Shown here: positions 31,149-63,384 of the stretch, piece by piece | How the letters are laid out: every line of letters starts with the position of its first letter | Numbering within the stretch: position 1 is the first letter of the stretch | Assembly: GCF_000283655.1 (NCBI RefSeq) | Contig: NC_016587.1 | Location: forward strand, 496,001 to 560,000 | Source of the DNA: Azospirillum lipoferum 4B | GTDB taxonomy: Bacteria; Pseudomonadota; Alphaproteobacteria; Azospirillales; Azospirillaceae | Reading direction: 5' to 3' | Length of the DNA stretch: 64,000 nucleotides | Position numbers and translations under genes: made by a program | The notes under the pieces: model-generated | Told to the model about the DNA's origin: nothing | Database searches by the model: none | Seen by the model: only the letters and a program-made list of their open reading frames with translations

Positions 31149-31194
31149 CTCTTCAAGCACTTAGAGAGTGGTGTCAGATCGGTCCACCAAAGCC

Positions 31195-36491: not shown

Positions 36492-37625
36492 CTATTCTCC
36501 GATCTTTTCGATAACATACCCCTTAATCAGTGCGTTTAAGGCATCCTTTGAGAAGAATATTGTCTTATTATTCTTTCTATATTCCATCTCGTCACATATC
36601 GCTCGCATGATTTCGAGGCCGGCGATCAACTGGTTTGCCGTGTATATATTTGTCCTGATATTATTAATATTCTGCTCAATTTTATCGCGATAAGCAGAGT
36701 TACCGATGCCTCTCAGGTCGACATCGAACAGGTGATCCGGATCGGTGGTTGCTTTCTTGTAGAGTTTATCAAAATCAGAAGCGTAGATTCGCTGATGGTA
36801 GGGGTTGAAGTCGGTCTGGCTGGGAAGCGAGCCGTCCGGGCGCACCAGCGTGGATGTGGCGAATACGATGCCGCCGGCCAGATAAATGCGATTTAAATTC
36901 TGCAAGCCGGGCCGCCTCGAAATGGCATCGCGAATCTGCGGTACCAGATAGGACTCCTTCAGCCTTGCCGCCGTTTCAACGAAGCTCCTGTCACCACGCT
37001 CCTCATCGATCTTTTTGGCGAAAGTCTTGACCCCGAATGGAAGCTCGATGGTCGCAATGTCCTCGATCGGCCCACGCTGATCCGAATGGGCAATCTTGAC
37101 GTTGCCACTGCCAATATCAATAGAGACCACGAACGGGCGGCGCTCTTTGTAGATCACCGTTCCATTAAAGATAAGCTTTGCTTCTGTAATCGGAGATATT
37201 ACATCTATATTCATTTTGGTTTTCATTAGAATTGCGTATTCAATCTGCGGCTTGTGCTTTAGATTTCCGACACCGCTGCTCGCATAAATGTAAATCTTAT
37301 CAGAAGGTACCTTGAACTGGCTGTTAAGGTCCAGGATCATCTGACTGACTGCGTTGGCAACATCTTCCGTCGCAGATTCATTGATTGCCGAGACGTTTCG
37401 GGGCGGGATCGACCCGAGATCCTCAAGGCCGCTGTTGCCGTCAGCGCTCCGGATAAATTGCCAAGCTGCGGCCTTGATACCGGACGACCCGACCTCGATG
37501 GCGCCAACAAGCTCCGGCTGGTTTGCAGCATAGGTTGGGTGCAACGTCATGCCGATGAAAATGGCGGTGACGGAAAGATAGATCGCGAATAAGCTGGATG
37601 GTCCTTTTCGTAAAGTCAACATCAT
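36492..37625 (-). CDS. Exported Ppx/GppA-like (actin-fold ATPase) protein
   Basis: This 377-residue protein begins with a signal peptide (hydrophobic SSLFAIYLSVTAIFIGMTL, then TYAAN). The mature part has the two phosphate-binding loops of the ASKHA/exopolyphosphatase superfamily: VGAIEVGSSGIKAAAWQF and VVSIDIGSGNVKIAHSD, with a typical interdomain stretch KIYIYASSGVGNL. Export of such a fold is unusual, since Ppx/GppA enzymes are cytoplasmic and bind ATP, polyphosphate or ppGpp. It may act on an extracytoplasmic polyanion or serve as a binding protein. It is the last gene of the kinase/phosphatase cluster. The low-GC codon use matches the other cargo genes. Confidence 0.75.
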   Translation of the reverse strand: MMLTLRKGPSSLFAIYLSVTAIFIGMTLHPTYAANQPELVGAIEVGSSGIKAAAWQFIRSADGNSGLEDLGSIPPRNVSAINESATEDVANAVSQMILDLNSQFKVPSDKIYIYASSGVGNLKHKPQIEYAILMKTKMNIDVISPITEAKLIFNGTVIYKERRPFVVSIDIGSGNVKIAHSDQRGPIEDIATIELPFGVKTFAKKIDEERGDRSFVETAARLKESYLVPQIRDAISRRPGLQNLNRIYLAGGIVFATSTLVRPDGSLPSQTDFNPYHQRIYASDFDKLYKKATTDPDHLFDVDLRGIGNSAYRDKIEQNINNIRTNIYTANQLIAGLEIMRAICDEMEYRKNNKTIFFSKDALNALIKGYVIEKIGE

Positions 37626-37684
37626 ACAACCTCCTTCTGAAGAGAAAGTTAATAAACAAATCTATATACAATTTTCCCACCATC

Positions 37685-39136
37685 CTAAATCGGGCATTCT
37701 TTATTATTCTCATATTTCTGAGTTAGATCTCTTCGAGCCAGATCAGCTTGCTTGTCTCCTTTCAAGGCCGCGGCGGTGTAGCAACTATAAGATGCATAGC
37801 CATTACTGATCCCAATTTGATCTATTCCGCTGCTTTCATCCTCGCGGGGATCGTACAATTTGCCGAGCCATCTCAGTGCCAGAACGTTTCCACGTTTGGC
37901 CGCTGCTCTGAATAAAATCAGCGCTGTTTGAGGAGTTTTTGCCCCATAGCATGTAATCCCCATCCCCAAGAGCTTATCAGGATTTCCTTCCTTTAAAAGG
38001 GTATCGATCTCCTTGCACGGTGAAAGTTTTTCCGGCGGCTCAGGCTGAGGCTTCGGCTCAGGCGGTGGCGACGGCGGCTTCGGCTCAGGAGGAGAGGTGT
38101 CGTGCTTAAACAGTAACAATATCGAACCCCACCAATCCTGGATGCTGTCTGTATTGTTCTGTTTGGCCACATAAGCGGTGAGGCTTAGGATAAGGACTAC
38201 TGTAGGAATCACGATCCACGTTCCGAATCTGGCCGTTTTCTTCTCAAACAGTGCGGCACGCCACTGATCGACGTTCTGGGGACGGTCTTTGGTCCGCAAA
38301 TTAAGCGCCCAGTCGATCGCCCTCAGGAAGCTTTTCCGATAGCCGCGCCGAGCGGCTTTTACCGCGGGGGGCAGCGGATCGGCGCCATCTTCTTGGACCC
38401 CGTGTAGGCGATCATGGGCGGAAACCGGAGCGCGCCCAGTCACCGCAAGATACAGTACAGCTCCCAGACCATAAATATCGGTGGCCGGGGCGCGTACCCC
38501 CTGTGTGGTATACACCTCGGGCGGGCTATAGCCATCCGTGCAGGTTTGCGCACTTGATGCGCCCTCCGCGGCCTCTTGATTGGCGAGATCGTCTCGTACC
38601 GATCCGAAGTCGATCAGCACCATGGTGCCGTTTGGCCTCACCAGGATGTTGCGTGCTGAAATGTCACGGTGCAGCAACCCCATCCGGTGCATTTCCGCCA
38701 AACCGTCCAAGGCCGTGCCAAACAGTCGCAGCAGCTCGGCTTCGTCTGGACGGTTTTGCAGATTGTCCAGATAACTCTCAAAAGTAATCCCCTCCTCGAA
38801 CCGCATCACCATGTAAGCGGTGCCATTCTCCTCGAAATAGGCATACACGCGCACGATGCTCGGATGATCGAAGCGGGCCAGGAACTGCGCTTCCTTGATG
38901 AAGCGCTTACGGAACTTGTCGAAAAGGTTGCTGTCGCTTCGGGACAGCGCCGTCACTCCCACGGACTGCATGCGGGCAGCGAGGCCCTGAGGCATGAATT
39001 CCTTAATTGCGAACCGCTTATCCAAATTCTGGTCATAGGCGAGATATGTTATACCAAACCCGCCGCGTCCCAGCGTCTGTAAGATCCGGTATTCCCGCAA
39101 CCGTGTCCCTGGCGGAAGCTCGATCGATTCGCTCAT
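37685..39136 (-). CDS. Transmembrane Ser/Thr protein kinase with extracytoplasmic repeat domain
   Basis: The 483-residue product has an N-terminal Hanks-type kinase (about 15-295): glycine loop LGRGGFGITYLAY, Lys45 in FAIKEFMP, catalytic loop LLHRDISARNIL, DFGS in LIDFGSVRDD and a Ser/Pro activation segment TDGYSPPEVYTTQG. A single membrane helix (about 307-326) and a Pro/Glu/Lys linker (PPEPKPPSPPPEPKPQPEPP) follow. The C-terminal part outside the membrane looks like Sel1-type repeats (ALILFRAAAKRGNVLALRWL) with cysteines. It probably senses an envelope signal and phosphorylates FHA-bound partners in the cluster. The catalytic residues are all present. Confidence 0.92.
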   Translation of the reverse strand: MSESIELPPGTRLREYRILQTLGRGGFGITYLAYDQNLDKRFAIKEFMPQGLAARMQSVGVTALSRSDSNLFDKFRKRFIKEAQFLARFDHPSIVRVYAYFEENGTAYMVMRFEEGITFESYLDNLQNRPDEAELLRLFGTALDGLAEMHRMGLLHRDISARNILVRPNGTMVLIDFGSVRDDLANQEAAEGASSAQTCTDGYSPPEVYTTQGVRAPATDIYGLGAVLYLAVTGRAPVSAHDRLHGVQEDGADPLPPAVKAARRGYRKSFLRAIDWALNLRTKDRPQNVDQWRAALFEKKTARFGTWIVIPTVVLILSLTAYVAKQNNTDSIQDWWGSILLLFKHDTSPPEPKPPSPPPEPKPQPEPPEKLSPCKEIDTLLKEGNPDKLLGMGITCYGAKTPQTALILFRAAAKRGNVLALRWLGKLYDPREDESSGIDQIGISNGYASYSCYTAAALKGDKQADLARRDLTQKYENNKECPI

Positions 39137-39215
39137 CCCCGTATCCTCAGAATGCTCTCATTGCTCTTTCTCGAGGAATGATATCCTTCATGATGATTCC
39201 TGAAGCGTAGATCTG

Positions 39216-40892
39216 TCATGGTTGCTGCGCTCCGAACCGATTCGGCCCCGGTGTGCCACGCTGAAAGCCACACGCCATCAACAGCAGAGGTAAACCGAAA
39301 ACCGGAATGGCGCTCAATAAAGCCCACCAGCCGGATCGATCGATGTCATGGAATCTCTTTGAGAAAATGGCAACACTGGTCCAGATCAGAACAAAGAACT
39401 GAACCAGGAAAATTATCTCCTTATCATTTTCACTAATATGATTGATGTCTGCCATTATGTTAGACAATAAAAACGCCACAATATAAAATAACGTATATAT
39501 CCATACATACCTCCTCGGCAATCGGCCCTGAAAATTGAATACAGCAGAAAATATATTTAATCGCGATCCGCTTTTTTCTTCTATATTCTTGACACTTTTA
39601 TTGAGATATTTTGATCCAAGCCGTACCCTCCACTCATCTATGCTCTGAGGGCGATCCTTGGATTTCAAGCTCAAGGCCCAATCGATGGCAGATAGGAATT
39701 CGACACTATAGCCGTTGATCCGCTGCTGCTGGAGCGGTACGAGAATGTCGGGATCGTTATTTGCGATTGCATTGGTCCGGTCCGGCGCCGGTGGTGGCGG
39801 TACGCCAACGGCAACCCGGTAAATGACCGCTGCCAGGCTGTAGATATCGGTTGACCGGATGCGCCGGCCCCGAATCGTATAAATTTCGGGCGGGCTATAG
39901 CCGTCTAGATAGGTTTGGGCAGACCGCGCAAAATTATTGTTGCCAATCGGGACGTCCATGGCTTGGCGCAGAGAGCCGAAATCGATCAGGACGGCGTCGC
40001 CGTTCCTGCGGACGATGATGTTGTTGGTAGAAATATCCCGATGCAGCAATCCAACCTGATGCATCGCGGACAATCCATCCAAGATGCTCAGAAAAATTGT
40101 CCTGATTCCACTTTCGGTAAGCCGGCCGCCTTGGCGAATCAAATGGCGTTCCAAGGTCTCCCCGTCCTCGAACTGCATGACGGTATAGGTGGTTCCATTC
40201 GCCTCAAAGTTGGACAGGACGCGGACGATGTTGGGATGATTGAAGCCTGCAAGCCCGCGGGCCTCCCGCATGAAATGGTCGCGATACCTATCGAACAGTT
40301 CCTGCTTCGAAGGCATGGATGGAACCACATCGGAACCATTGATCCGGACGGCGAGGTCCTGGGGCATGAACTCCTTGATGGCGACCAGCGTGTTCAGTCG
40401 GGTATCGCGGCAACGATAGGTGATCCCGAACCCGCCTTGGCCGAGCACATCCTCGATCCGGTAGTCCCGCAGCCAGGTTCCGATAGGAAGGGCGTCCCGG
40501 CTCGCGCCGGAATTGGACGACCTCGTGCCTTCCTCATAGGACACGGTCAGCTTGGTCTCGCCGAATTCCAAGACTGTTCCGTGGGGCACGACGATGGGAA
40601 CAAAAGGCTCCAGGAAGCCGTGATGCTGAATATAGACACCGTTCACGGCATTGAGGTCCTCTACCGTCAGTTCATTTCCGGAAACGACGAAACGCGCGTG
40701 CTGGCGCGACACCGTATCGTCATCGATCACGATGCTGGAGAGAGAATTGTCACGTCCCAGAGTAACGGAGCCACCGTTACTCTGCAAAAGCGACTCTTCA
40801 AGGATGATCTCGATCGGCCGCCCCGATCCGTCCGCCCCCGACAGGGAAAAAATCCCTTGATAGCCCGGCGTCCTTTGTTCATCCCCGCTCAT
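39216..40892 (-). CDS. FHA-Ser/Thr kinase-DUF805 membrane protein
   Basis: The roughly 558-residue fusion has an N-terminal FHA phosphothreonine-binding domain (LGRDNSLSSIVIDDDTVSRQ, then HARF), a Hanks kinase (LGQGGFGITYRCRD, VAIKEFMP, LLHRDISTNNIIV, LIDFGSLRQ) and a C-terminal DUF805 membrane domain with four helices and FHDIDRSGWWALL. Its kinase is a paralogue of the downstream kinase. The FHA domain could recruit autophosphorylated kinase or the other cluster members. ATG 40892 is preferred over 40919 because GGAGAG is eight bases upstream. A fusion of all three domains is uncommon. Confidence 0.9.
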   Translation of the reverse strand: MSGDEQRTPGYQGIFSLSGADGSGRPIEIILEESLLQSNGGSVTLGRDNSLSSIVIDDDTVSRQHARFVVSGNELTVEDLNAVNGVYIQHHGFLEPFVPIVVPHGTVLEFGETKLTVSYEEGTRSSNSGASRDALPIGTWLRDYRIEDVLGQGGFGITYRCRDTRLNTLVAIKEFMPQDLAVRINGSDVVPSMPSKQELFDRYRDHFMREARGLAGFNHPNIVRVLSNFEANGTTYTVMQFEDGETLERHLIRQGGRLTESGIRTIFLSILDGLSAMHQVGLLHRDISTNNIIVRRNGDAVLIDFGSLRQAMDVPIGNNNFARSAQTYLDGYSPPEIYTIRGRRIRSTDIYSLAAVIYRVAVGVPPPPAPDRTNAIANNDPDILVPLQQQRINGYSVEFLSAIDWALSLKSKDRPQSIDEWRVRLGSKYLNKSVKNIEEKSGSRLNIFSAVFNFQGRLPRRYVWIYTLFYIVAFLLSNIMADINHISENDKEIIFLVQFFVLIWTSVAIFSKRFHDIDRSGWWALLSAIPVFGLPLLLMACGFQRGTPGPNRFGAQQP

Positions 40893-40925
40893 GGCGAATG
40901 CTCTCCTCGACCGTCCCATGTCCCA

Positions 40926-42236
40926 TCAGATCCGTAGAACCTTTAATCGAGTCTCTCCCAACTCGATTTCAGCGCCGGCAGAAAGTGGCTTTGGTACCAA
41001 TGGATCGATGGGCCTCCCGCCATCGATAGAAACTTTATTGGTGGATTTGAGGTCCTCGATATGAAGAATTCCGTTCACGATCGTAAATCGGGCATGCTGT
41101 CCCGATACCGTGTCGTCGTTGATCACTTTCTCAGCGACCTGTTCATTGCTTCCCACGATCAGTCCATTTGAGCTTTCTTTTAAGAGCGCCTCATCAATGA
41201 CGAAGTGCACAGGTTGCCCGTTGCCGTCCGTTCCCCTGATCTGCCAGCGTGGTGAGGGATCGTCGTTTCCCCGCTGATCCTTCCTGGGCGGACAAGTGCC
41301 TGATGGACGAGGTTGTCTCCGCATCCACTGACTGTATGTTTCTGTTATTAGTTGTGGCCGGCGGACAAAGGCGATGGTCGCGGCGGCCAACGCTGCGGTG
41401 GACAATACGGTGACCAGCCAAATGACGATACTGTTGGGTGCCGCCGCCGGCACACAGGAAGACGACTGCGCTTCGAAGGAGAGGTTTGATCTCTTCAGTA
41501 AGTCCGCCAAACTTCCGGCATGGGAGGCAAAGTATATTCCGTTTGGTTGAAGAAAAGTTCCATCTGGCAAACGCTCAGGTCTTGGCAACGCGGTATTGAT
41601 ACCGACGACCCTCCCGCAGTCGTCGAGCAATGGACCACCACTGTTGCCCCGATTGATGTTGGCGGTGTGTTGCACCAGACGCAGGGTTGATCCCGATGAT
41701 GTATCCCAGCGCCCTGTCTCCACCCGACTTATGATCCCCTCCGTAAGCGTTGGATTCGACAAACCGCTTCCGCCAATCCCTGTATCTCCTGCTACCGGGA
41801 AGCCGAAAGCATGGACCCGTGCACCCTTCTCCGGTTCTTCCATGGCCAAAGGTAGTGGGTGGAGAAGAGTATTGTTAAGGCGCAGTAGCGCCAGATCAAG
41901 CTCCAGATCCAGCGCAATCAGTTCTGTTGATAAGAGATCAACACGATCTTGGGTACTTCCCTGTTGAACGAACATTTTTACATGGCATTTTTCTTTGGAG
42001 TTGCAACCAACCACATGGCGATTGGTTGCGATATATCCGCCATTGCTGACAACGAATCCTGTACCGAATGCTTTTTGTTGATTATCAGAATAGCGCACCA
42101 AGCGGACAACGCTTTGTTCGACCGATTTAACGTCGAACGCACGCACCGCCCCAGAAACCAATGCGCAGGTGCAGAACGCCGCCGCCGCAAAAGCGCCACA
42201 CACTCTGAAAGTCCGATTAATTTTGAGCTCAGTCAT
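40926..42236 (-). CDS. Exported trypsin-like serine protease joined through the membrane to an FHA domain
   Basis: The 436-residue product has a signal peptide or anchor (to about residue 33) and an S1-type protease with the full triad His74 (YIATNRHVVG), Asp114 (LDLALLRL) and Ser199 (NINRGNSGGPLLD). Two cysteines follow His74 (GCNSKEKC). A membrane helix (about 270-292) and a cytoplasmic FHA domain (about 340-436: NDDTVSGQHARFTI, LKSTNKVSIDGG) come next. There is no PDZ domain, so it is not a standard DegP/DegS. Its form suggests that phosphorylation inside controls proteolysis outside, or the reverse. It shares an ATG-overlap junction with the PP2C gene upstream. Confidence 0.9.
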   Translation of the reverse strand: MTELKINRTFRVCGAFAAAAFCTCALVSGAVRAFDVKSVEQSVVRLVRYSDNQQKAFGTGFVVSNGGYIATNRHVVGCNSKEKCHVKMFVQQGSTQDRVDLLSTELIALDLELDLALLRLNNTLLHPLPLAMEEPEKGARVHAFGFPVAGDTGIGGSGLSNPTLTEGIISRVETGRWDTSSGSTLRLVQHTANINRGNSGGPLLDDCGRVVGINTALPRPERLPDGTFLQPNGIYFASHAGSLADLLKRSNLSFEAQSSSCVPAAAPNSIVIWLVTVLSTAALAAATIAFVRRPQLITETYSQWMRRQPRPSGTCPPRKDQRGNDDPSPRWQIRGTDGNGQPVHFVIDEALLKESSNGLIVGSNEQVAEKVINDDTVSGQHARFTIVNGILHIEDLKSTNKVSIDGGRPIDPLVPKPLSAGAEIELGETRLKVLRI

Positions 42237-43315
42237 TATCTTGTTCCCTGCGCCTCAGGCGTAGTGTTAGCTCCAGGAACCGATGGCACTTCTCTCTGTC
42301 CGGTGCCGGTCGTCTGAGCCCCCGAAGTTGGAGGGACACCGGATTGTGAGACTGCCGTATTATTATTATTGCCTTGCCTCGCAGCCGGCGCCCCGTGATC
42401 CGCCTGATTGGCGGGCGGCTCATTCGTTATGATCAACTTGCCAAGCAAAAAGCCTCCGATGAAGCCGATCAGCAGCGCCACGATGATTGCAAGAGTCACG
42501 TGCAGCGTGTGCTTCTGAACAGCGATCTTGGTCGCATGGGGCAATCCGGGCAGGACGACTCTGAGCGGACCCGTCAGTTGATCTTCCCGCTGGCTGGGCC
42601 AGCGCACGACGATGGCGGTGACATTGTCCGCTGCCGTCCCACCGCGAACCACCGCCTCGTCCACCCAGCGCTGAAGAGACCGATCAAGCCCCTTTTCCCA
42701 AAGCACGCCGGCCATTTCCTTTGGCGTCACCCATTCCCAGAAGCCATCGGAGCACAGGATGAAGCCGTCCCCCGGCCCCATCATTGCCGAGCCGAAGGTT
42801 GGATTGGGCGCCTCGTCACCACCGAGAGACCGATTCAGACGGTTGCGATCCAGATGATGAAGCATGTCTTCTTCATTGATTTCCTCCAAGTCGAACAGCA
42901 TCTGGACGACGGAATGATCACGGGTCCGGTGAAGCAACTGCTGATCGTGGAAGTGATAGAGGCGGCTGTCGCCGATATGGCACCAATCCGCCTGTGTGCC
43001 GCGAATGAGGAGAAGAACAACGGTCGAGCGCGGGCTTATGCCGCTTTCCTGGCCAAGTCGCAGAATGTCTTTCTGCGCTTTAGCGCAGATGGAAAGGAAG
43101 AAGGATCTTGCATCCTCCGGAACCCCTTCCGACCATTGTGTCTGTGCAGCCTCGACAATGATCCGCGAGGCGAGTTGCCCCCCCTCGTGCCCGCCCATGC
43201 CGTCGGCAAGAACGGCGAGCAACGCCGACGCCTGCTGGTCGTGAAAAATGGCATGGGCATCCTGCTGAATCGAACGGCTGCCCTGATGACTGCATTTTGC
43301 CGAGTGAAGCATCAT
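42236..43315 (-). CDS. Membrane-anchored PP2C-type Ser/Thr phosphatase (first copy)
   Basis: This 359-residue protein has an N-terminal PP2C domain (about 1-245) with the metal sites VLADGMGGHEGGQLAS, WCHIGDSRLYHF, ILCSDGFWEWV and ADNVTAIVVRW. A membrane helix (about 270-292) follows, then a flexible Asn/Pro/Thr-rich tail outside. It should reverse phosphorylation by the two kinases. It overlaps the protease gene at its 3' end and the second phosphatase gene at its 5' end (43312-43315), so expression is coupled. Confidence 0.92.
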   Translation of the reverse strand: MMLHSAKCSHQGSRSIQQDAHAIFHDQQASALLAVLADGMGGHEGGQLASRIIVEAAQTQWSEGVPEDARSFFLSICAKAQKDILRLGQESGISPRSTVVLLLIRGTQADWCHIGDSRLYHFHDQQLLHRTRDHSVVQMLFDLEEINEEDMLHHLDRNRLNRSLGGDEAPNPTFGSAMMGPGDGFILCSDGFWEWVTPKEMAGVLWEKGLDRSLQRWVDEAVVRGGTAADNVTAIVVRWPSQREDQLTGPLRVVLPGLPHATKIAVQKHTLHVTLAIIVALLIGFIGGFLLGKLIITNEPPANQADHGAPAARQGNNNNTAVSQSGVPPTSGAQTTGTGQREVPSVPGANTTPEAQGTR

Positions 43316-44343
43316 GGCTTCGCAGCTTCGCTTTTCTGCACACCAGCCGGGGGAATCACGGCGGATGGCGTCGATTGCGCGGAATAAGTCAATCCCCCGG
43401 TCAACAGGATGGCGGCGACGAGGCCTGCGGAACAGAGGAAGACAAGCGAGAGGAACAGGGCCGTCATCCTCATGATCGCGGTCACGCGGTCTTTCAGGCG
43501 CCTGTTGGACGCCGCCGGCGCTTCAAGCGACCGAAGGGGCGGCACTACCGGCATTTCCAGAAGAATCGGCATTGAATCCGGGCGATCGGCGGCAAGGACG
43601 ATGACCGTCGTGTTGTCCTGCCCTTCCAACTGAAGGGCGTCGACCGAGTTGAGAATCTGCTGGACCAACCGCCCTGCGGGCTGCGGGCCTCCCTCCAGCA
43701 GGACGGAAAGCTCGTGGCTGGAAAGACTGAGGAGACCATCGCTTGCGAGGATCAGGCGGTCGTCTTCCTGGATAGGGTCACCGCGGTGAGGGCCATCGAC
43801 CAACGGTATCGGATCGCCGGTTAACGCCGAGGTGATCGTATGACGGTCAGAATGTGCCAGCGCCTCTTCTACGGAAATCTCCCCACGTTCCGCGGCCCGG
43901 TCCAACTCGGGAGCCAGCGAGTGGTCTTCATTGAGCCGACATAAATGGCCGTTTCTCGACCGCAGCAGCAGGGAGTCGCCGACGCTGATCCAGGTTACCA
44001 TGGTCGAACGGGCTGCCACGGCAATCAGCGTGCATCCCATCCCCTCCTTCAGCGGGTCCACGGTACGGTCCAGGGCGAGCGCGTCATTGGCGGCCGCGAG
44101 GGCGATGACGAGGCGTTCGTCATCGCTTCCGGTCTGCTGCTGGAAAGCCGAAGCGAACACGCTCACCGCCCGCCGGCTTGCATGATCGCCGGCAGCCGCG
44201 CCACCCACACCGTCCGCCAGTACGGCCAGCACCCCATGCAAGCCGGTGTGCGGGTCTTCCATCGGAACCAGCTGGAAACTGTCTTCCTGACGCCGACGGG
44301 CACCTTGAATCTGCCCGCCGGCGTGCTGGATGACCAAGTTCAT
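43312..44343 (-). CDS. Membrane-anchored PP2C-type Ser/Thr phosphatase (second copy)
   Basis: This 343-residue phosphatase shows RRRQEDSF, LAVLADGVGGAAAGDHASR, WISVGDSLLLRS, LILASDGLLSLSS and EGQDNTTVIVL, with the metal aspartates of PP2C. A C-terminal membrane helix (about 290-315) and a short external tail follow. It is paralogous to but clearly different from the next phosphatase, and only the latter is GxGGHEGG-type. It overlaps genes on both sides (ATGA). Two phosphatases for two kinases suggest separate substrate pools. Confidence 0.92.
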   Translation of the reverse strand: MNLVIQHAGGQIQGARRRQEDSFQLVPMEDPHTGLHGVLAVLADGVGGAAAGDHASRRAVSVFASAFQQQTGSDDERLVIALAAANDALALDRTVDPLKEGMGCTLIAVAARSTMVTWISVGDSLLLRSRNGHLCRLNEDHSLAPELDRAAERGEISVEEALAHSDRHTITSALTGDPIPLVDGPHRGDPIQEDDRLILASDGLLSLSSHELSVLLEGGPQPAGRLVQQILNSVDALQLEGQDNTTVIVLAADRPDSMPILLEMPVVPPLRSLEAPAASNRRLKDRVTAIMRMTALFLSLVFLCSAGLVAAILLTGGLTYSAQSTPSAVIPPAGVQKSEAAKP

Positions 44344-44903
44344 CGGTCTTGCCAGTCGAAATCAGGTCCGCAGAATGGGACGAACCGGAGCACCGTCTTG
44401 CTGCCGAGACCGATGAATTCACCGCCATGCAATTCGACGGGGGTCAGAACGGGTTGATCACCAACATAGGTCAGGTTGGCCCCTTCACCATGCCGCAGGT
44501 AGAATTTGCGGCCACGAGGATCGTAGGTCAGTTGAGCGTGCTGCTGCCGGGAAATCTCGTTGTCGCCCAGATCCAGTCTGACTCGCTGGCCTTCGGCCCG
44601 GCCGATGCTGTTCATGCCGTACCCCAGCGGGCGCGACGTGCCGCGTCCGGGTCCTTCAACAATGACCAGCCATCCCACCACCGGCTCGTCCGGTGCGGTC
44701 TGGCGTGCGGGCGATACCGCTGGCCCGTCGCCAGAAGGAGGATCGCTGCGGTTGGGGTTGAAGAAGCCTGTTGCTCCGCCAGCCGCCTTGTTTCCCACGG
44801 GGGACGTCTCGGCTCGTTTCGAAGCGGGGGTGGGGCGTGGCGCCTGCGCCCCCGGGGCCTCAGGCTTGTCAGGTTCTTCGCGATTGATGATTCGGGTAGT
44901 CAA
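44340..44903 (-). CDS. Soluble FHA-domain protein
   Basis: The 187-residue product has a long Pro/Ala/Gly-rich N-terminus with Thr residues (TRIINREEPDKPEAPG, then RPTPASKRAETSP) that could be kinase targets, and a C-terminal FHA domain (GMNSIGRAEGQRVRLDLGD, EISRQQHAQLTYDPRG). There is no membrane segment. The arrangement recalls small FHA proteins such as GarA that are phosphorylated on an N-terminal threonine and then bind their own FHA domain. That parallel is inference. Confidence 0.88.
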   Translation of the reverse strand: MTTRIINREEPDKPEAPGAQAPRPTPASKRAETSPVGNKAAGGATGFFNPNRSDPPSGDGPAVSPARQTAPDEPVVGWLVIVEGPGRGTSRPLGYGMNSIGRAEGQRVRLDLGDNEISRQQHAQLTYDPRGRKFYLRHGEGANLTYVGDQPVLTPVELHGGEFIGLGSKTVLRFVPFCGPDFDWQDR

Positions 44904-44948
44904 GTATCGTCTCCGTAAAGCTGAAGAATCAACGAGAGCTGGAAATAT

Positions 44949-46424
44949 TCAGGTCGACATCTCGCCCTTCGCCTCCTGGTTCAGAACCAAGCGCATGCGG
45001 ACCTCGCCCAATTCGATGACGTCGCCCGACGACAAAGTTCGCTGTTTGATTTCCTGATTGTTGACCAGGGTGCTGTTGCTGGAATTGAGGTCGGTGATCA
45101 TGAAGCCGCCATCTCGCTGCCAATGCAGCGCCGCGTGGTAGGTTGACACGGTGTCGTTGGTGAAGGTGATGTCGTTCTCCGCCCCCCGCCCGAGCCGGAT
45201 GGCTTGGGCGCGCAACGGGATGCGCCGTCCTTCGGCGTCGAGAAACTCGAGCCAGCCGACGATCGCGGCCGGATTCTCATCCCTTGTGTTCTTCCCGTTC
45301 GTTTTGAGATGGCCTGAGGCGAACCATGCCAGCGCGCCAGCGAGAAGGACGAAGACGGCGGCCAGCGTCCAGGACAACAGCGGGTTATCGAGAAGCCAAG
45401 CTTCCGCGGCGGCCCACCCGGACAGTGGTGCCGGTTGCGGCGTCAGCTGCGGCAACGGAGGCTGCTGGGGTTGCGATTGAGCTTGCTGCGGCGGATGCGA
45501 CGGGGGGGCATCCGGTAGAATCACATCGACCGCCTGAACCATCGGAGTCGGGGCATCGGTCGTCAGAGCGATCTTCAACGAATGGGGGCCGTGGAAATCG
45601 GCCGTATCGATCGATATCTGGCCACCGTTGTCGAGGTAATCGAAAAAATTGTTGACGATGTCGTCGGGCAGCTTCTTGGAGCTGATCTTGGCCTCCCGAT
45701 AGGGGCCATGCGTTTCGCGAGCCAGACGATAGAGGTTTTGCAGGGGCGGCTTTTCACCTTCCTTCTCGGCATAGGCGAGGCCGAAAATGATGACGTCAGC
45801 CTTCCGCGCGGCGACTATGGCGTCCTCCAACTTATAGGCGGTGTCCTTCAGATTGCCGTCGGAGAGTACGATCAGCGCTTTGCGGCCCGCCGGGGCTTTT
45901 TCGAGCATTGCCACGCCGTCCAGCACGGCCCGGATCAATTCACTGGCCTGGCCGTTGGGTTGGAGTTTCGCTGCCCCGTCGAGAAGGACCTCCTTTTTCG
46001 CGCCGACAGGGGCCAGGATCTTCAACCCGCTCGCGAAGCTGGCGATGCCGATGTCGTGATGAGATTTGGCTTTCTCGATCAGGCTTTTTATCAGGGCGCG
46101 CTGGTTGTCGATGGTCGCCTTGCGCTCGCTGGAATTTCTTGAATCCACCAGAAAAAGGATCGTGGAGCGCAGGTTGGACGCATAGGGAAAGGGCGTGATC
46201 GCCGAAACGACCAGCTTTGATCCGGATATATCGGCATTCAGCGCGGTGACCGCTTTCGGTTCCCACAGCCGGACATCGCATTTCACGGAATTGCTTTTTG
46301 CTGAACACCGCAAGTCGACGTCGTTCTGCTGTGCCAAGGCGGGAGCTCCGGCAGCGATGGCAATCAACAGCATCACAGCAATTTCAGCGATCGCAATTCT
46401 ACGCAGAAAACTCAGCCAGATCAT
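44949..46424 (-). CDS. Exported VWA-domain protein joined through the membrane to an FHA domain
   Basis: The 491-residue product has a signal peptide (to about residue 31, PALAQ), an extracytoplasmic von Willebrand A-like domain (about 85-260) and a Pro/Gln linker (PPQQAQSQPQQPPLPQLTPQ). A membrane helix (about 355-375) and a cytoplasmic FHA domain (IRLGRGAENDITFTNDTVST, then YHAALHW) follow. The metal-binding motif reads DSRNS at 94-98, so the second position is Arg instead of Ser. It is the first gene of the kinase/phosphatase half of the cluster. ATG 46424 has AAGGA ten bases upstream. Confidence 0.9.
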   Translation of the reverse strand: MIWLSFLRRIAIAEIAVMLLIAIAAGAPALAQQNDVDLRCSAKSNSVKCDVRLWEPKAVTALNADISGSKLVVSAITPFPYASNLRSTILFLVDSRNSSERKATIDNQRALIKSLIEKAKSHHDIGIASFASGLKILAPVGAKKEVLLDGAAKLQPNGQASELIRAVLDGVAMLEKAPAGRKALIVLSDGNLKDTAYKLEDAIVAARKADVIIFGLAYAEKEGEKPPLQNLYRLARETHGPYREAKISSKKLPDDIVNNFFDYLDNGGQISIDTADFHGPHSLKIALTTDAPTPMVQAVDVILPDAPPSHPPQQAQSQPQQPPLPQLTPQPAPLSGWAAAEAWLLDNPLLSWTLAAVFVLLAGALAWFASGHLKTNGKNTRDENPAAIVGWLEFLDAEGRRIPLRAQAIRLGRGAENDITFTNDTVSTYHAALHWQRDGGFMITDLNSSNSTLVNNQEIKQRTLSSGDVIELGEVRMRLVLNQEAKGEMST

Positions 46425-46952
46425 GTGGGCACATTCCTTTGGATGAATAACTGTGTATTCAAACTATCTTTGATCGATCATGACTCATCGAACATCGACG
46501 TTCAAGAGTTGAGGCGTGCAAAAAAACATCAGAAGAATCGTAGGAACGCCAAAAATCTTTCTTTAGTGGTGTTATTTTAAATCTAACAACTATTAGGATA
46601 GAATTGCAACGATAACCTATTGGGAATGATGGAATTAAAATTGAGTCCTGGCATAAAATTACATAAATGAGCGACATATCCGCCTTCAAGCAATACAAAT
46701 CATGACTTATTGTAAAGATCAGAAGATCCTCTTTTGCCATATTTATCAAGTATACTTGCGGCACCGAATAGGCATAGAGCACGCTTTCACCACCGTGTCT
46801 GGCACGGCACCGCCGGAAGATTTCGGTGGATAGCGAGAGACTCTCAATGCATTGCATTATTTGGTGTGCCGGGGCAGCCCGCGCCCCGGCAGGTCAAACG
46901 TATCCGCGCCAACCGGCGCGGACCCGTCGTACGTCCCCCATAACCCCAGCCA
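46425..46952. other. AT-rich intergenic region, likely promoter of the VWA-FHA/kinase operon
   Basis: About 530 bases without a credible gene separate the CsgG/OmpA half from the FHA/kinase half. Only a spurious low-complexity minus-strand frame lies here. The region presumably holds the promoter of the downstream operon. Confidence 0.5.
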
Positions 46953-47711
46953 TTATTTTCTCAGGACGACCTGTACACGCCGGTTGCGGGGATCGAACTC
47001 GCTGACGCCAGGAAGCGGTTGCCGCGATCCGTACCCCTCGACGGCGATCCTCGTCGGATCAATGCTGTAAGCGGCGACGATCTGGTTGCGTACCTCTATC
47101 GCCCGCTGGAGCGACAACGGGTCGTTGATCGCATCGCTTCCCGATCGGTCGGCATGGCCGCTGAGCGTGATGGCCAGCGCCGGCTGGAGGCGAAGGGCTC
47201 CCCCGATGACATTGACCGTCTCTCTGGCTGCATTGTTGAGAGCTGCCGAATTCGTGGAAAAATTGATCAGGTAGGCGACCGCAACCTTTCCCGATTCCGC
47301 TTTCCCCGCCCCGATCTTCGGCGACGGCAGAGACGGTGAAGGCAAAGACGGCGACGGCTGCGGTGCTGTCGGCGATGGCTTCGATGCCGGCCGGAATTCA
47401 ACCGAATAGGGAATCGTGCCGCTGACCGCCGTGTCGGAAATGTCCGGTTCGCCCACCGGAGCGGAAAACATCTGCGTCCGGCCCACGAGATCGGGAGATC
47501 GCGCCTGGGTGCCGGGGGTCGAGGCCGGCGCCTCCAGGAGCTGAAGGAACTCTTCGGATGACAGCCGTCCGGTGACGACATAAACGACATCCGGCCCCGG
47601 ATTATCCTGCGCGGCGATGCCGGGAACGCTCGTTAGGGTGCAGAGCGTGAGAAGAAAGCCGGCCAGGGCACGTCTGATGTCGGTGGGTTCACGATGATCC
47701 GACCAAGTCAT
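46953..47711 (-). CDS. OmpA-family peptidoglycan-binding protein
   Basis: The 252-residue exported protein has a signal peptide, a Ser/Pro-rich linker (PSPTAPQPSPSLPSPSLPSP) and a C-terminal OmpA-like domain: ITLSGHADRSGSDAIN, SLQRAIEVRNQIV, RIAVEGYGSRQPL and NRRVQVVL. This domain grips peptidoglycan. No beta-barrel is seen, so it is a periplasmic anchor, likely holding the CsgG-like pore or the repeat protein to the wall. It follows the CsgG-like gene by 21 bases. Confidence 0.9.
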   Translation of the reverse strand: MTWSDHREPTDIRRALAGFLLTLCTLTSVPGIAAQDNPGPDVVYVVTGRLSSEEFLQLLEAPASTPGTQARSPDLVGRTQMFSAPVGEPDISDTAVSGTIPYSVEFRPASKPSPTAPQPSPSLPSPSLPSPKIGAGKAESGKVAVAYLINFSTNSAALNNAARETVNVIGGALRLQPALAITLSGHADRSGSDAINDPLSLQRAIEVRNQIVAAYSIDPTRIAVEGYGSRQPLPGVSEFDPRNRRVQVVLRK

Positions 47712-47732
47712 GGCACTCTTCTCCCCCAGCGG

Positions 47733-49310
47733 TCAATGGACTGTATAAGACAGTTTATCCGAGGCGATTGGTCCGGCACCGGCAGCGCCGATCGACGCGG
47801 CAATCGCATCCACCGACGTCACACCCGGAATCGGCATCAGATCCTGATGGGCCAATATCGCCGCATGCCCATCATCGAACCCCCGTTCGTTGGCGAAGCA
47901 GGCGACCTCCTCTATCCCAGGCCGGCGCAGTTTGATGTCGAAACCGACGTCATCTCCACGGACAGGCGGGATGGTCAAAGCGGTACCGGACGATACGAAG
48001 GACGCCGTCTGGAATCGATTGGGATAAAGACGGACGGTTGCGCCAGCACTGTCCGTGTAAAAGCAACGGAGATGGGCGCTGCGCGACAAGGTAACGATGA
48101 ACGCCGTGCGATCCCCCGTCTTGAAATCCGCACCGACCTTGGCCGCCGGTCCAGCCGCGGCCAGGGCGCCGGTGCTTCGAACATTGACCGTCAGTTCCCT
48201 CGCCGGCCGTGTCGCGGCCAGCATTTGCGACGACGCGCCGGGACCAAAGCCCCCCCCCGGCAATGGTAGGGCGTTGGCTCCCTGGCTGAGCTTCATGAAA
48301 GTTTCGAATGTCGGCCGGCCGCTTGCCACGAGATTGTTGTCGGCCTGGAAACGGGCCAGCGTCGCGCGCAGCGCATCCGGGTCGTTCGCCCCGCCACCCG
48401 TCAGATACCCACGCTGCTCCAGGGATTGACGGATGTACTGGAGCCGCTCGGTTTCAGAGACACCATCGTACCAAGCGCGCAACTGCTCCTGGACGAGTTT
48501 ATTGCCGTTGTCGATCTGCAGGCAATCCCAGTAGGGAAGCTTGAAGAGCTTACCGACCAGTTCGATACTGCCCAGTTCTATCAGGGTGCGCGCCGCCTGC
48601 CCGATGGTTTCCTGCTTGTCGACGCTGAGATTGAAGCGCACACCCGCCTTCAGGATGCGCGCGCCGGCCTCACCCGACTTTCCCTCGCTGGCGATGACCG
48701 CGGTGTTGTTGGAGGTGACGCCGGGGATGACGGTCTGACCATCCATCAGGGCCACATGCAGGTCGACCGCGATCGAACCGATGCGCCGGTCGGCCGCCGC
48801 CCCAAGCTGGAACAGTTCCTGCGAGATATCGAAGCCGCGACGCCCCGCGGCTATGTTGGTGTCCGCTTGAGAAATGCTGCCGCCGATCACATATTCTGCC
48901 CGCTCGATCACAGGCTTAGCCTCATAGGTCACCCAGTCGGTGCCCGCGGCTTCCGTAGCGCCCGGGCGGGTGCGCGATACGTAAAGAAAAGCCTGACTCG
49001 ATTCCGACATGGTGGACAGGGCCGAAATCAGCATATCGACCCCTCCGACCGCGACATTGCCTGTACGGTCCGGCAGCAGGGTGCTGGTGACCACGACGTG
49101 ACGGATGCCGTGTTCCCCAAGCTTGCGGTCCATACAACGCAAACCGTCGGTGAAACCCGTGATGGTCCGGGTCGGCTGAGTCGCCGGTTGGGCGATGATC
49201 GTGGCGTGTTCTGGATTCGGCAAGGCGCAGGCCGACACCGCGAGCACCGATCCGAGCGCGATGCGACAAGCCATCCGGTTGGACTTTTTCGGTTCGTCCT
49301 TCATCGTCAA
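47733..49310 (-). CDS. CsgG-like outer-membrane lipoprotein with peptidoglycan-binding-like and DUF4384-like domains
   Basis: The 525-residue lipoprotein has a lipobox (LAVSAC) near residue 28. Residues about 50-275 match CsgG, the curli secretion pore: AEYVIGGSISQADTNI, FQLGAAADRRIGSIAVDLHV, and TLIELGSIELVG ending in YWDCLQ. A region like a peptidoglycan-binding repeat (about 275-345, YLTGGGANDPDALRATLARF) and a DUF4384-like domain (TAFIVTLSRSAHLRCFYTD, then TVRLYPN) follow. E. coli CsgG stops after the pore part, so this is an extended form. It is the best evidence that the cluster exports something across the outer membrane. Confidence 0.85.
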   Translation of the reverse strand: MTMKDEPKKSNRMACRIALGSVLAVSACALPNPEHATIIAQPATQPTRTITGFTDGLRCMDRKLGEHGIRHVVVTSTLLPDRTGNVAVGGVDMLISALSTMSESSQAFLYVSRTRPGATEAAGTDWVTYEAKPVIERAEYVIGGSISQADTNIAAGRRGFDISQELFQLGAAADRRIGSIAVDLHVALMDGQTVIPGVTSNNTAVIASEGKSGEAGARILKAGVRFNLSVDKQETIGQAARTLIELGSIELVGKLFKLPYWDCLQIDNGNKLVQEQLRAWYDGVSETERLQYIRQSLEQRGYLTGGGANDPDALRATLARFQADNNLVASGRPTFETFMKLSQGANALPLPGGGFGPGASSQMLAATRPARELTVNVRSTGALAAAGPAAKVGADFKTGDRTAFIVTLSRSAHLRCFYTDSAGATVRLYPNRFQTASFVSSGTALTIPPVRGDDVGFDIKLRRPGIEEVACFANERGFDDGHAAILAHQDLMPIPGVTSVDAIAASIGAAGAGPIASDKLSYTVH

Positions 49311-49696
49311 TTCCCCTTGCCTGTACTTTTCAGTATTTGCTGAAGCAGGATCAGCATCGGGTCGGGACGCAGACTCAGCGCTTTCGCGATATCAGGATTT
49401 GCCTTGAGCAGTTGCGTCTCGGCAGGCGTGGGCGTTTGATGCCCCAATGCAACGGTGCCTGAAGGAGGCAGAGCGACGGCCTCGTCGATCTGGCGCAGAA
49501 CCTCTCGAAGAAGCTCCGGGTCCTTTTGTTCCAGTTCTCTCAGAACAGGATTGGTGAAAATGCGCGCATCCCTGAATGTTTCGCCCAGCGCCAGGTTTTT
49601 AACCTGAGACCAGGCTGTAAACGACGTGAATGCCATCGCAAGACCCATAGACATGGCGCCAACGATGACGATTCTCAGCGATGCTGACACGGTCAC
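49307..49696 (-). CDS. Exported protein of unknown function
   Basis: This 129-residue protein has an N-terminal signal or anchor (RIVIVGAMSMGLAMAF, then SFTAWSQ) and a helical mature part (FTNPVLRELEQKDPELLREV, LQQILKSTGKGN). The start overlaps nothing upstream; its stop overlaps the ATG of the CsgG-like gene (49307-49310). It is likely a periplasmic helper of the secretion half. No family was recognised. Confidence 0.7.
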   Translation of the reverse strand: MTVSASLRIVIVGAMSMGLAMAFTSFTAWSQVKNLALGETFRDARIFTNPVLRELEQKDPELLREVLRQIDEAVALPPSGTVALGHQTPTPAETQLLKANPDIAKALSLRPDPMLILLQQILKSTGKGN

Positions 49697-49705
49697 GCTC
49701 CTGAT

Positions 49706-50548
49706 TTATCGATTCATGATTTGGCGAATGGCGGTCATGTACAGACCAAAGCAATTTTCAAGAATGCCGGGGGACCGGATGACCCTCGCCTTGTCGTAGG
49801 GACGCACAATGACTTCCAAAAGACCGCATTTACTGAGGCCGTCCAGAGTCTTGCGGCAAGTCTCGGCCGACATCACATCGACCAGGAAACGCGCCATGTC
49901 CGATTGGCTGAGTTCGAACCCCCCCTGGGACAAAGCCATGCTGATCTTGGCAATCACCGCCTCCGGAAACAGGCCGCCCCGCAGCGCATCCGTCCGCCCG
50001 CCACTCTTGCCTTCATGTTCCGAACTGGCAAGGATGTTGGTAATCCGGAGATTGTGCAACTTGATCAACTCGAGAAAATAATCGTGCTGATCGGCGCCCA
50101 GCGCTCGCAAGACGAAAAGAAATTCAGAGATCAAAATCACATGCTCTCTATATTTGTCGATCGTTTCGTCGAACCACTCCTTATTCGGCGTATGCCGCGC
50201 CAAGATCTCGAAGAATTCTGTGCGAGCCTGCCGCAACCCTATATCGAGAGCGACGTCCAGTTTGGCATTGCTCCAATCATAGTTCAGCGGATCCGAAGGA
50301 GTCGCTGCCTCGCCCATCGCCAACCGCTCCCCGCACCAGAAATAGAATTTTCCAGGCCCTCCCGGCAAAGAAGGGGCTGAAGGTGGCGCGCACAACACGC
50401 CATCCTCCATCAGGCTTACACCATACTCTCTTTTCAGGTCACGATAATCCTCGTAAATCTGCGATAAATTGCAGGAACCTTTATCAGACATACGATTTTT
50501 GCGCAACATCGCATTTTTTTTCTGATAAAGGTTGAATTTCATTATCAT
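49706..50548 (-). CDS. Probable regulator with Crp-type winged helix-turn-helix
   Basis: The 280-residue cytoplasmic protein has an unrecognised N-terminal region with helices rich in charged residues. Its C-terminal region resembles a Crp-like winged helix: FELSQSDMARFLVDVMSAET, CRKTLDGLSKCGLLEVI and ARVIRSPGILENC. The nucleotide-binding barrel of true Crp proteins is not obvious. It is embedded in the secretion half of the cluster, so it may control it, perhaps at the palindrome upstream of the repeat-protein gene. Confidence 0.65.
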   Translation of the reverse strand: MIMKFNLYQKKNAMLRKNRMSDKGSCNLSQIYEDYRDLKREYGVSLMEDGVLCAPPSAPSLPGGPGKFYFWCGERLAMGEAATPSDPLNYDWSNAKLDVALDIGLRQARTEFFEILARHTPNKEWFDETIDKYREHVILISEFLFVLRALGADQHDYFLELIKLHNLRITNILASSEHEGKSGGRTDALRGGLFPEAVIAKISMALSQGGFELSQSDMARFLVDVMSAETCRKTLDGLSKCGLLEVIVRPYDKARVIRSPGILENCFGLYMTAIRQIMNR

Positions 50549-50557
50549 GGATGCCGC

Positions 50558-50938
50558 CTATCGCGTGCACGAGGCGATGATGTTTTCCTTTGCGTAAACG
50601 TTGAGTTCGCGCAGATTGACCGCCTCATTGCCTTCGACCACCCCGATGTTCTGGGTGCATTCCCGGCTCTGGCCGCTGACGACCTGGACCTCCCGCTTTC
50701 CGGTCCGCGACGTGCTCTCGACGAAGACATTGTTGGATCCGGGCGTGAGACCGGCCTTCTTGACCGCGTTCGTGCGCAAAGCCTCGCTTTCCATCCGGTT
50801 CATTTTGACCATATCTTCGGGAGCGACATTCGTCCTGGCGTTGAATGGCTTGGCTTGAGCCCAGGCGGAAAGCGGCGATACGACGGCAGCGGACACGACG
50901 AGGGTGACGGTGAACAGTGGGGCTATGATGCGTTTCAT
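50558..50938 (-). CDS. Exported protein of unknown function next to the curlin-like gene
   Basis: The 126-residue protein has a signal peptide ending SAWAQA before KPFNART. The mature part has two cysteines (SRECTQNIGVV, NIIASCTR) that could form a disulphide, and regular Asn/Val-rich strands. ATG 50938 follows GGAG closely. Its place between the repeat protein and the regulator suggests an accessory subunit or chaperone comparable in role to CsgE/F, though no sequence match was recognised. Confidence 0.7.
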   Translation of the reverse strand: MKRIIAPLFTVTLVVSAAVVSPLSAWAQAKPFNARTNVAPEDMVKMNRMESEALRTNAVKKAGLTPGSNNVFVESTSRTGKREVQVVSGQSRECTQNIGVVEGNEAVNLRELNVYAKENIIASCTR

Positions 50939-51009
50939 TTCGGTCTCCGAGTCTGACGGGGGGACGAATGGGGGGTTGGCCGGCGTATGACGCCGGCCAA
51001 CCGGGGAAC

Positions 51010-51303
51010 TTACTTGCCAACCAAAGAACCGATGTTCTGGCTGACCCCGTTGAGATTCCCCTTTACCGAAACAATGGAGTCGCGCATAGTCACCGTCTGT
51101 TTGAGGTTCCCCTTGACGCCGACATCGCCGACGGCACTGCCGACATTGTGGTCGACAGAGTTGAGGTTGCCTTCCACAGTGGTCCTGGCATCGCGCATGT
51201 TGACGGTGTGAGTGGCATTGCCACCGATTTCGATGCGACCGGCCGAAGCCAGGCTGGTGGACAGGAGCAGGCCGGTGAGCGCCATTGCAGTCAGCTTCAT
51301 CAT
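51010..51303 (-). CDS. Curlin-like repeat protein, possible exported fibre subunit
   Basis: The 97-residue product has a signal peptide ending SLASA before GRIEIGG. The mature part is about two imperfect repeats of about 34 residues: NMRDARTTVEGNLNSVDHNV, then GSAVG; and TMRDSIVSVKGNLNGVSQNI, then GSLVG. The regular alternation of Asn, Gly, Val and Thr with Asn/Gln at fixed spacing resembles beta-helical amyloid subunits of the curli type, although the exact CsgA repeat consensus is not met. It is the first gene of the cluster, with an AGGAG ribosome site, and is the natural candidate substrate of the CsgG-like pore. Confidence 0.7.
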   Translation of the reverse strand: MMKLTAMALTGLLLSTSLASAGRIEIGGNATHTVNMRDARTTVEGNLNSVDHNVGSAVGDVGVKGNLKQTVTMRDSIVSVKGNLNGVSQNIGSLVGK

Positions 51304-52076: not shown

Positions 52077-53386
52077 TCACGTGGCTTTCTCGCCCCGCAA
52101 TCGAAACGTCTCCTGGATGTGAAGCCCGATGACGTCGGCCGCTTGGCGAAGCGGCGATGCCACGAGATGGGCGTAGCGTTGCGTTGTCACCGGCTGGGTG
52201 TGCCCAAGCAACGCGCCGATGACCGGCAGGGACAGCCCTTTCGCCGCTCCAACGGACGCGAAGGAGTGGCGCAGGTCATGCAACCGAACATCGCTCAGCC
52301 CCGGCGGCAGCGCAATACCGGCGATCGCAGCAGCGTCCTGGCATTCGGCAACACTCGGCGTCCGCTCCAGACGGTCACGCAACCCCGCGATGATTGTCGT
52401 GATCGGGTCGGATGGATCGGCGCTCCACAAGCGGACGGTGGCCGCTTCCCGAATGCGATGCCAGGGTTTGCGAAGGTTGACCAGCGCCGCTGCCGGATCG
52501 GCGCCCGGAAACACCCACCCCGAGGTCCGCGGCAACGCCGTCAAGACCCCGACCGCCAGGGCGTTGAGGTGAATGGTTTTCGCACCGGTCTTGCTGTCCG
52601 GCAGGCGCGCCCTTCCCGCGACGAGATCGACATAATCCCAGCGAAGCGTCTGGATCTCGGAAAGCCGGGCTCCTGTGAACAGCAGGAGACGGACGATGCC
52701 GATGATCGATGTCGGTTCGGCACCCGAACGCTCCGCATCGTCGAGCGTCTGGCCAAGAGCGGCAAATTCCTTGTCCGACAGAAAGCGCTCCATCCGCCGT
52801 TCCGGATACCGCTCCACATGCCGACAGGGATTGCTGCCATCGGGGCGCAGGCCCCATTTCTCGGCGAGATTGAACATTTTGGACAGCAATGCCAGCACCC
52901 GGTTGGCGGCACCGGGCGTGCCGTGCATGCCGTGATGAAGAGAGGCGACATCCGCCCGGGTTTTGTCGGCGACCCTCTTGCGTCCGATTTGGGCACGGAC
53001 GTGAAGACGGAGATTGTCCTGATCCTTGCGGGCGCTGCTGGCCTTTTTCTTCGACGCGGCATGCTGCTGGAGATAGCGGTCGGCAAGGTCGTTCATCGTC
53101 GACGCGGCGTTGCCGGCCTTCACATCTGCGACCGGGTCTTCCCCACGCTGAACGGCCGCCAGCACCTGCAACGCCGCTCGACGCCCTTGCTCCGGCGTCA
53201 TCGGGCCATGGGTGCCCAGCGTCAGGCGGCGTGAATCTTTTCCGTCCCTCGGTACTGAACCACATACGTCTTGCGCCCAGAGGGCTTGATACGCAGACCG
53301 AACCCGGACAACTCGTCGTCCCAGACGACCGTTTCCTTCGTATCCGGCTTGATGCCGTCGATCACACGTTTGGTAAGCTTCGGCAT
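52077..53386 (-). pseudogene. Tyrosine-type site-specific integrase, frameshifted near residue 48
   Basis: The enzyme begins at ATG 53386 with a typical arm-binding start (MPKLTKRVIDGIKPDTKE, ELSGFGLRIKPSGRKTYVVQ). At about 53238-53241 (AAAA on the minus strand) the frame must shift by -1 to continue with KDSRRLTLGTHGPM and the rest. Catalytic residues are all present: TGARLSEIQTLRW, the box HDLRHSFAS, LLGHTQPVTTQRYAH. Without the shift a 51-residue peptide ends at TGA. It is the resident integrase of the tRNA-Phe island and lies at its right end. The break may be a mutation, a sequencing error or, less likely, programmed. Confidence 0.85.
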
Positions 53387-53436
53387 CGGCGCTTCTCCCG
53401 CGGATCAGAGCCATGACGCGCTCAGCACAGAAGCTC

Positions 53437-63382: not shown

Positions 63383-63384
63383 GA

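Follow-up and report, generated by a model that had tools for sequence, protein, structure and literature searches.

Does the row of fourteen genes that brings a Ser/Thr phosphorylation switch and a CsgG-type lipoprotein together in Azospirillum lipoferum 4B encode one system or two? The genes, here called g1 to g14, lie in a stretch of 64,000 nucleotides (NC_016587.1, positions 496,001 to 560,000; hereafter the window). The first-pass annotation of this DNA had proposed that a cytoplasmic phospho-switch gates an external protease, an adhesin-like VWA protein and fibre export. The fourteen consecutive minus-strand genes that it described are real, from g14 at 51303 through g1 at 36492, and an inner-membrane-spanning phospho-switch and a CsgG-type module indeed share one mobile island; what is not supported is the single gated system. 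We propose, with a probability of about 0.6, that the cluster is not one system but two modules, A (g14 to g9) and B (g8 to g1, the membership of g1 being unsure).

Gene layout and module boundary

The cluster reads as follows from g14 to g1 (TM, transmembrane helix; aa, amino acids).

51010..51303, minus strand: g14, secreted 97-aa repeat protein with two 37-residue repeats; candidate export substrate
50558..50938, minus strand: g13, small secreted protein; upstream partner of CsgG in several genomes
49706..50548, minus strand: g12, 280 aa, no Pfam family; resembles a winged-helix regulator by eye
49307..49696, minus strand: g11, small secreted protein
47733..49310, minus strand: g10, CsgG-fold lipoprotein with peptidoglycan-binding domain and DUF4384
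46953..47711, minus strand: g9, OmpA-domain protein with signal-peptide-like N-terminus
46425..46952: gap of 528 bp, the sole long one, at the module boundary
44949..46424, minus strand: g8, signal-like N-terminus, VWA - TM - FHA
44340..44903, minus strand: g7, soluble FHA adaptor, GR kept, SxxxH
43312..44343, minus strand: g6, PP2C - TM
42236..43315, minus strand: g5, PP2C - TM
40926..42236, minus strand: g4, signal-like N-terminus, trypsin-like protease (H-D-S triad) - TM - FHA without GR and NG
39216..40919, minus strand: g3, FHA - Ser/Thr kinase - DUF805 (membrane)
37685..39136, minus strand: g2, Ser/Thr kinase - TM
36492..37625, minus strand: g1, Ppx/GppA-like (sub-threshold), signal-like N-terminus

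The spacing between neighbours is -4 to 79 bp everywhere except between g9 and g8, where the 528 bp separate gene sets that act as units in other genomes. Promoter-like signals number 15 against 8.0 (standard deviation 3.0) in shuffled sequences and lie mostly on the opposite strand; terminator-like signals number 13 against 14.5 in shuffles. Most of the parts named by the first-pass annotation are confirmed, namely four FHA proteins, two kinases, two PP2C-TM proteins, a CsgG-fold lipoprotein and an OmpA protein; the curlin-like protein is not (see below). The g1 gene, which has no plasmid match and was not seen in the relatives of module B, may not belong to this module. Its signal-like N-terminus would put an actin-fold protein outside the cytoplasm.

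Modules A and B occur apart

The full-length VWA-TM-FHA protein was found in none of the 33 genomes carrying a CsgG-DUF4384 protein (FHA-only matches in three of them were not scored as VWA-TM-FHA), and the CsgG domain in none of the six switch-bearing genomes or records. Among 385 genomes from the class of an Azospirillum, the CsgG part is present in 8, the rare full-length switch protein in 4, and both in none. At the phylum level (398 genomes), the g10 profile matches in 19, the switch protein is present in 1, and again no genome has both. In the four profile searches of these two samples, only the best three or four first-look candidates per genome were scored. The E-value cut-off for VWA-TM-FHA was 1e-12 in the 385 genomes and 1e-20 in the 398, and for the g10 profile 1e-20 in both; the two profile searches in the 385 genomes, and likewise those in the 398, are taken as the same genome draw, given that group, number and handles agree. 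In the six switch-bearing genomes or records and in the 385 genomes, matches limited to DUF4384 or to the peptidoglycan-binding domain were not counted as CsgG: of the 15 g10-matching genomes among the 385, 8 cover CsgG, 5 of them nearly full-length. One genome with the switch protein (G095) has a DUF4384-only match to g10.

Each module thus stands alone. The first-pass annotation had named a failure of the two halves to co-occur in other genomes as a refutation of its reading, and no sampled genome has both. The result gives no support to a single system with fibre export gated by the switch. Both modules are so rare that zero overlap is expected by chance, with no need for avoidance, and uncoupling within this particular island does not follow.

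Module A, a proposed CsgG-type export operon

The CsgG fold of g10 was recognised in a predicted structure by a fold search (structure alignment A7, 22 rows). The Pfam CsgG score is 15.1 bits, under the cut-off of 20.8, and a search of PDB sequences with the g10 profile gave matches only around the peptidoglycan-binding part, hence the need for the fold search. The N-terminus of g10 is lipobox-like by eye. Together with g14, a small secreted repeat protein encoded alongside, these features recall curli secretion (type VIII, CsgG). In contrast to curli, g10 adds peptidoglycan-binding and DUF4384 domains in one chain and has an OmpA partner, g9, and no CsgE or CsgF Pfam match is found in g9 or g11 to g14. 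Many Alphaproteobacteria are described as lacking CsgE and CsgF (PMC3521004), and the same source gives the repeat pattern of curli CsgA/B as X6QXGX2NX10. The g14 protein has no Pfam curlin match at E up to 10, and the motif QxGxxN is absent from it. By these tests g14 is not a curlin, in contrast to the curlin-like protein of the first-pass annotation. An AlphaFold model of g14 made without an alignment was a single long helix with a predicted TM-score (pTM) of 0.24 and was discarded as uninformative.

Used alone as a contig-scan query, g10 found no relative; a two-row alignment found the 33 CsgG genomes. The loci were read by listing all open reading frames (ORFs), as the longest non-overlapping ORFs hide genes in GC-rich loci. 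Profiles were built for g14 (seeds: the window, L093, and two proteins each from L096 and L029) and for g13 (the window, L093 and L029), the latter replacing a regular expression that recovered L029 and L032 only. Beyond the seeds, the first 41 CsgG loci gave both profiles in L094 and in L091 (g13 weak there, E 0.036), g13 in L026 and marginally in L032, and g14 in a third ORF of L029; 14 control loci gave no match with either profile. A further 14 non-seed CsgG loci contain g14 in eight cases and g13 in seven, with no match in reversed sequences, and six of them (L116 to L121) have the order g14-g13-CsgG-OmpA. The same order is seen in L093 (seed) and L094 (non-seed), both from the class of an Azospirillum, which makes eight other genomes in two classes. 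No kinase relative was found in the DNA around these eight loci. In L093 (4565-6832; genome G104), a caspase (C14)-SUMF1 protein directly follows the operon.

A second kind of locus is found in Azospirillum itself. It resembles module A in having a CsgG protein with peptidoglycan-binding and DUF4384 domains (33-36% identity to g10), mostly beside OmpA, and secreted GNxAxQ repeat proteins near some copies; it differs in that no switch-gene relative lies nearby and no g14 or g13 profile match is present. The island CsgG is also outside the clade of these proteins. In a maximum-likelihood tree of 32 rows (omitted were L035, L025, L007, the majority of the Azospirillum rows, and L090-L092 and L129, which are partial or fused; the midpoint root serves for drawing only), the island row sits on a long branch (1.69) and is not part of the starred clade that groups Azospirillum, Caenispirillum and their kin. 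Its nearest rows by path are from the class of G519, a genome that bears the switch, without a supported sister group. Holding the island CsgG with the Azospirillum rows was rejected (p-AU 9.6e-5), for a group that was named after the tree had been seen. A looser scan for GNxAxQ found ORFs with at least two motifs in 10 of 34 CsgG loci against 0 of 12 control loci, a weak result since the motif was picked after viewing L001, the matches are mostly from Azospirillum and some ORF starts are unsure. In the same loci, at least two copies of the curli motif QxGxxN occur in one ORF of the CsgG loci and in two of the controls, and a curlin regular expression with a density cut gave no match. The L001 region (22878-32658, an Azospirillum ramasamyi plasmid) has secreted GNxAxQ repeat proteins near its CsgG-DUF4384 locus; it also holds a CHASE2 cyclase and a caspase-SUMF1 protein, the domain pair seen in L093.

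Relatives of g12 are found in 90 plasmid records, 88 of them from Rhizobium. On the Rhizobium plasmid pRL11, the annotation and inspection by eye give a g12 relative followed by a small secreted protein, which resembles g11 at its C-terminus by eye only, and by a DUF4384 gene whose end is OmpA-like; caspase and trypsin-like genes are located near.

Module B, a proposed phospho-switch across the inner membrane

The catalytic residues of module B are retained: K, HRD and DFG in the kinases g2 and g3, the Asp motifs in the PP2Cs g5 and g6, and H-D-S in g4. The motifs of FHA domains are GR, SxxH and NG (PMC1262709). All three are present in g3; g8 has GR and SxxH with NS instead of NG, and g7 has GR with SxxxH, as do its relatives. 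The FHA domain of the g4 protease shows GS and NK where its relatives in L050 and L046 show GR and NG. To judge from these residues, it may no longer bind phosphothreonine, and the case for direct phospho-gating of the protease is the weaker for it. The predicted orientation of the VWA and protease domains is outward. The metal-site motif of VWA domains is DxSxS, and the site of g8, D94-S-R-N-S, looks degenerate when set against it; an adhesin-like role for this protein is unsupported. The g8 gene has no phage match.

The core order of module B recurs in two distant genomes, G519 and G192, without CsgG and without a type VI secretion system (T6SS). In G519 the genes follow the window order, VWA-FHA, small FHA, g7, g6, g5, g4 and kinase, the small FHA gene being absent from the window. 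G192 has the order of G519 as far as g4, except for two insertions, a coiled-coil VWA protein and a member of the MotA/ExbB family; FlgB/FlgC-like genes come after g4 (L046:2-9152). Over aligned parts, the module B proteins are 27-56% identical to those of G519 and 32-73% identical to those of G192. Related sets with a channel are present in G015, where the first kinase comes after FliM and three other genes (L047:1-14979), and on a Rhizobium leguminosarum plasmid; G095 and G072 have partial sets. Matches to PF01618 (MotA/ExbB family) are found in L046, L002 and L047. In alignment A6, the L045 row comes from an ORF that overlaps a kinase ORF, and the second half of this row should not be relied on. 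The T6SS marker VipB was found in none of the six switch-bearing genomes or records (five partly fragmentary assemblies and one plasmid alone), and no T6SS gene is among the island genes scanned. This agrees with the first-pass annotation, which had reported no T6SS, and homologous loci do not always include T6SS structural genes.

The g7 profile matches 18 plasmid records, 12 from Leisingera, 5 from Ruegeria and 1 from Rhizobium, of which seven stretches were opened (Rhizobium L002 and six from the Roseobacter group). In all six Leisingera/Ruegeria stretches opened, of 17 matches, kinase, FHA and PP2C genes stand in order with dynamin-family genes nearby. The latter are paired, with two hypothetical genes after or before them, in all six (L065-L070). 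The kinase-FHA-PP2C and dynamin set of L065-L070 looks like a separate recurring system.

The island and its surroundings

Genes g1 to g14 are carried by an integrative genomic island of 22.5 kb, as the first-pass annotation had assumed. It is bounded by the 3' end of a tRNA-Phe gene (31071-31146) and, at 53574, by a 54 nt copy of this end with 98% identity, next to which a tyrosine integrase is encoded.

31100..31153: left attachment repeat, 3' part of tRNA-Phe; similarity runs on to 31251
33932..35542, plus strand: ISL3 transposase; inverted repeat arms 33851-33874 / 35566-35589
52077..53456, minus strand: tyrosine integrase of the island (Pfam Phage_integrase E 2.8e-16), beside the right repeat
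53574..53627: right attachment repeat, 98% identity over 54 nt; similarity runs on to 53715

Further cargo includes a NYN-domain gene and an ORF with transposase-type HTH domains, presumably IS630-like. The GC content is 49-63% at 36-54 kb versus 63-75% in the rest of the window. Among 16 genomes compared, the HisD of the window is nearest to those of Azospirillum sp. 412522 (G767, 98%) and Azospirillum sp. TSH64 (G008, 97%). In the five Azospirillum stretches read (L104-L107 and L109), the left flank is matched and the right flank of the window was not found beside tRNA-Phe. In G008, a 52 kb contig (C4, L108) carries the 3' core of tRNA-Phe at each of its two ends, and G766 has extra copies. 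The tRNA-Phe gene seems to be a recurrent integration target, or hotspot, in Azospirillum. Directly right of the island, at 54261-63706, lies a cluster that is of hydrogenase type by eye; in the relatives read it was not found beside tRNA-Phe.

Proposed functions and alternative explanations

Judging from domains and gene order, module A most likely serves export and module B is most likely a phosphothreonine relay at the inner membrane. The g10 protein would form an outer-membrane pore, tied to the peptidoglycan by its own binding domain and by the OmpA-type g9, and this pore may export g14 and perhaps also g13 and g11; g12 may regulate the module. In module B, the kinases g2 and g3 would phosphorylate threonines to which the FHA domains of g3, g7 and g8 could dock, and the PP2C enzymes g5 and g6 would reset the switch. 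Docking may cluster or activate the extracytoplasmic VWA and trypsin-like domains, with signalling presumably running in this direction. The island probably joins two functional modules that evolved apart, as suggested by their separate recurrence, the 528 bp junction gap, the CsgG fold and operon order, and the position of the island CsgG outside the Azospirillum clade.

Several points weigh against this reading. A and B keep to one strand and one island, which favours some coupling; their adjacency and common strand are the grounds for it here. The nearest switch relative, that of G519, is on an 8.3 kb contig that ends 755 bp upstream of the VWA ORF, so linkage to CsgG is excluded there only by the search of a fragmentary assembly. 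The g10 structure model has a mean pLDDT (predicted local distance difference test) of only 68. Members of g14 or g13 were found in only 7 of the first 41 CsgG loci, none of them titled Azospirillum, and the g14-g13 pair is therefore not universal beside CsgG-DUF4384; moreover, the six order-matching loci L116-L121 are all in the class of G519 and are not six independent cases.

A single system, with the surface protease, the VWA protein and CsgG export all gated by the phospho-switch, for example through a phosphorylated envelope partner or through g4 cleaving a plug, is rather unlikely in our view, and direct gating of A by B is doubtful to much the same degree. The two modules are adjacent, co-oriented and on one island, and both reach the envelope. 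The control of T6SS by PpkA, PppA and Fha, as outlined in PMC5995506, is a phosphothreonine precedent for a secretion machine, and pRL11 brings proteases and parts of the export set together. Against this stand the absence of A-B pairs from the sampled genomes, the junction gap, and the loss from the g4 FHA domain of the GR and NG that its relatives keep. Far less probable is a remnant of the T6SS threonine phosphorylation pathway (PpkA, PppA, Fha). This pathway has the same ingredients, a Hanks-type kinase, PP2C and FHA at the inner membrane as well as VWA, with catalytic and phosphothreonine motifs present here apart from the g4 FHA, and g3 is 34.5% identical to kinases annotated beside tssH on Pantoea plasmids. 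However, VWA is here on an FHA protein and not on the kinase, a protease-TM-FHA protein and two PP2Cs are found, the island genes scanned include no T6SS gene, and module B recurs without T6SS, VipB being found in none of the six switch-bearing genomes or records.

Two further explanations concern module B and the island as mobile DNA, and we regard both as improbable, although less so than a T6SS remnant. Module B could be tied to motility or to a proton-driven envelope machine, in view of the MotA/ExbB-family channel and the coiled-coil VWA protein of its relatives, the FliM before the L047 set and the FlgB/FlgC-like genes of L046. But neither the channel nor the coiled-coil protein occurs in the window or in L050, and no flagellar gene is among the island genes scanned. 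The cluster could also be an anti-phage or other conflict island, with a kinase-FHA-PP2C core and swappable partners on mobile DNA, as its tRNA-Phe site and the dynamin-family genes of the six Leisingera/Ruegeria plasmids may suggest. PADLOC matches the kinases to mad6 and PD-T4-6, g5 and g6 to PDC-M21C, and g4 to RT-Protease and PDC-M35A; these matches span shared kinase, phosphatase and protease domains, and there are none for g7, g8, g10 and g12. Linked kinase, PP2C and vWA genes are also known from conflict systems (eLife 2020 52696, PMC7159879); in that source this set is an actinobacterial theme of GAP1-N2 GTPase systems, and the remaining vWA systems are built around MoxR. Unlike these, the island cluster has neither the GAP1-N2 GTPase core nor the MoxR core (no AAA/MoxR Pfam match among g1 to g14), nor VMAP or a nuclease, and its VWA and protease domains would be outside the cytoplasm.

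Significance

The part types of both modules are known. As far as we have seen, the g14/g13/CsgG-DUF4384/OmpA operon and the VWA-FHA/FHA-PP2C/protease-FHA cassette are undescribed variants: no recognisable description of either module was found in the open-access literature searched, and a search there for DUF4384 together with CsgG gave no paper. Module A represents an operon for CsgG-type export that has a secreted repeat family of its own; it is present in genomes of two classes or more and differs from curli. Module B represents a T6SS-free trans-envelope phospho-switch whose parts stand elsewhere beside ExbB-like channels, flagellar genes or dynamins. Gene order and profiles now give a definition of both, and for the time being they are best handled as separate finds.

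Their pairing in A. lipoferum 4B is unusual, each module being without the other in the relatives examined, and the island constitutes a natural test of wiring such a phospho-switch to protein export. The switch might act via VWA and trypsin-like domains tethered to the membrane, opening or processing a CsgG-DUF4384 pore through which the g14-family surface repeat protein is released; we consider this unlikely. If true, it would be the first phosphothreonine-gated CsgG exporter, releasing a new class of surface repeat protein.

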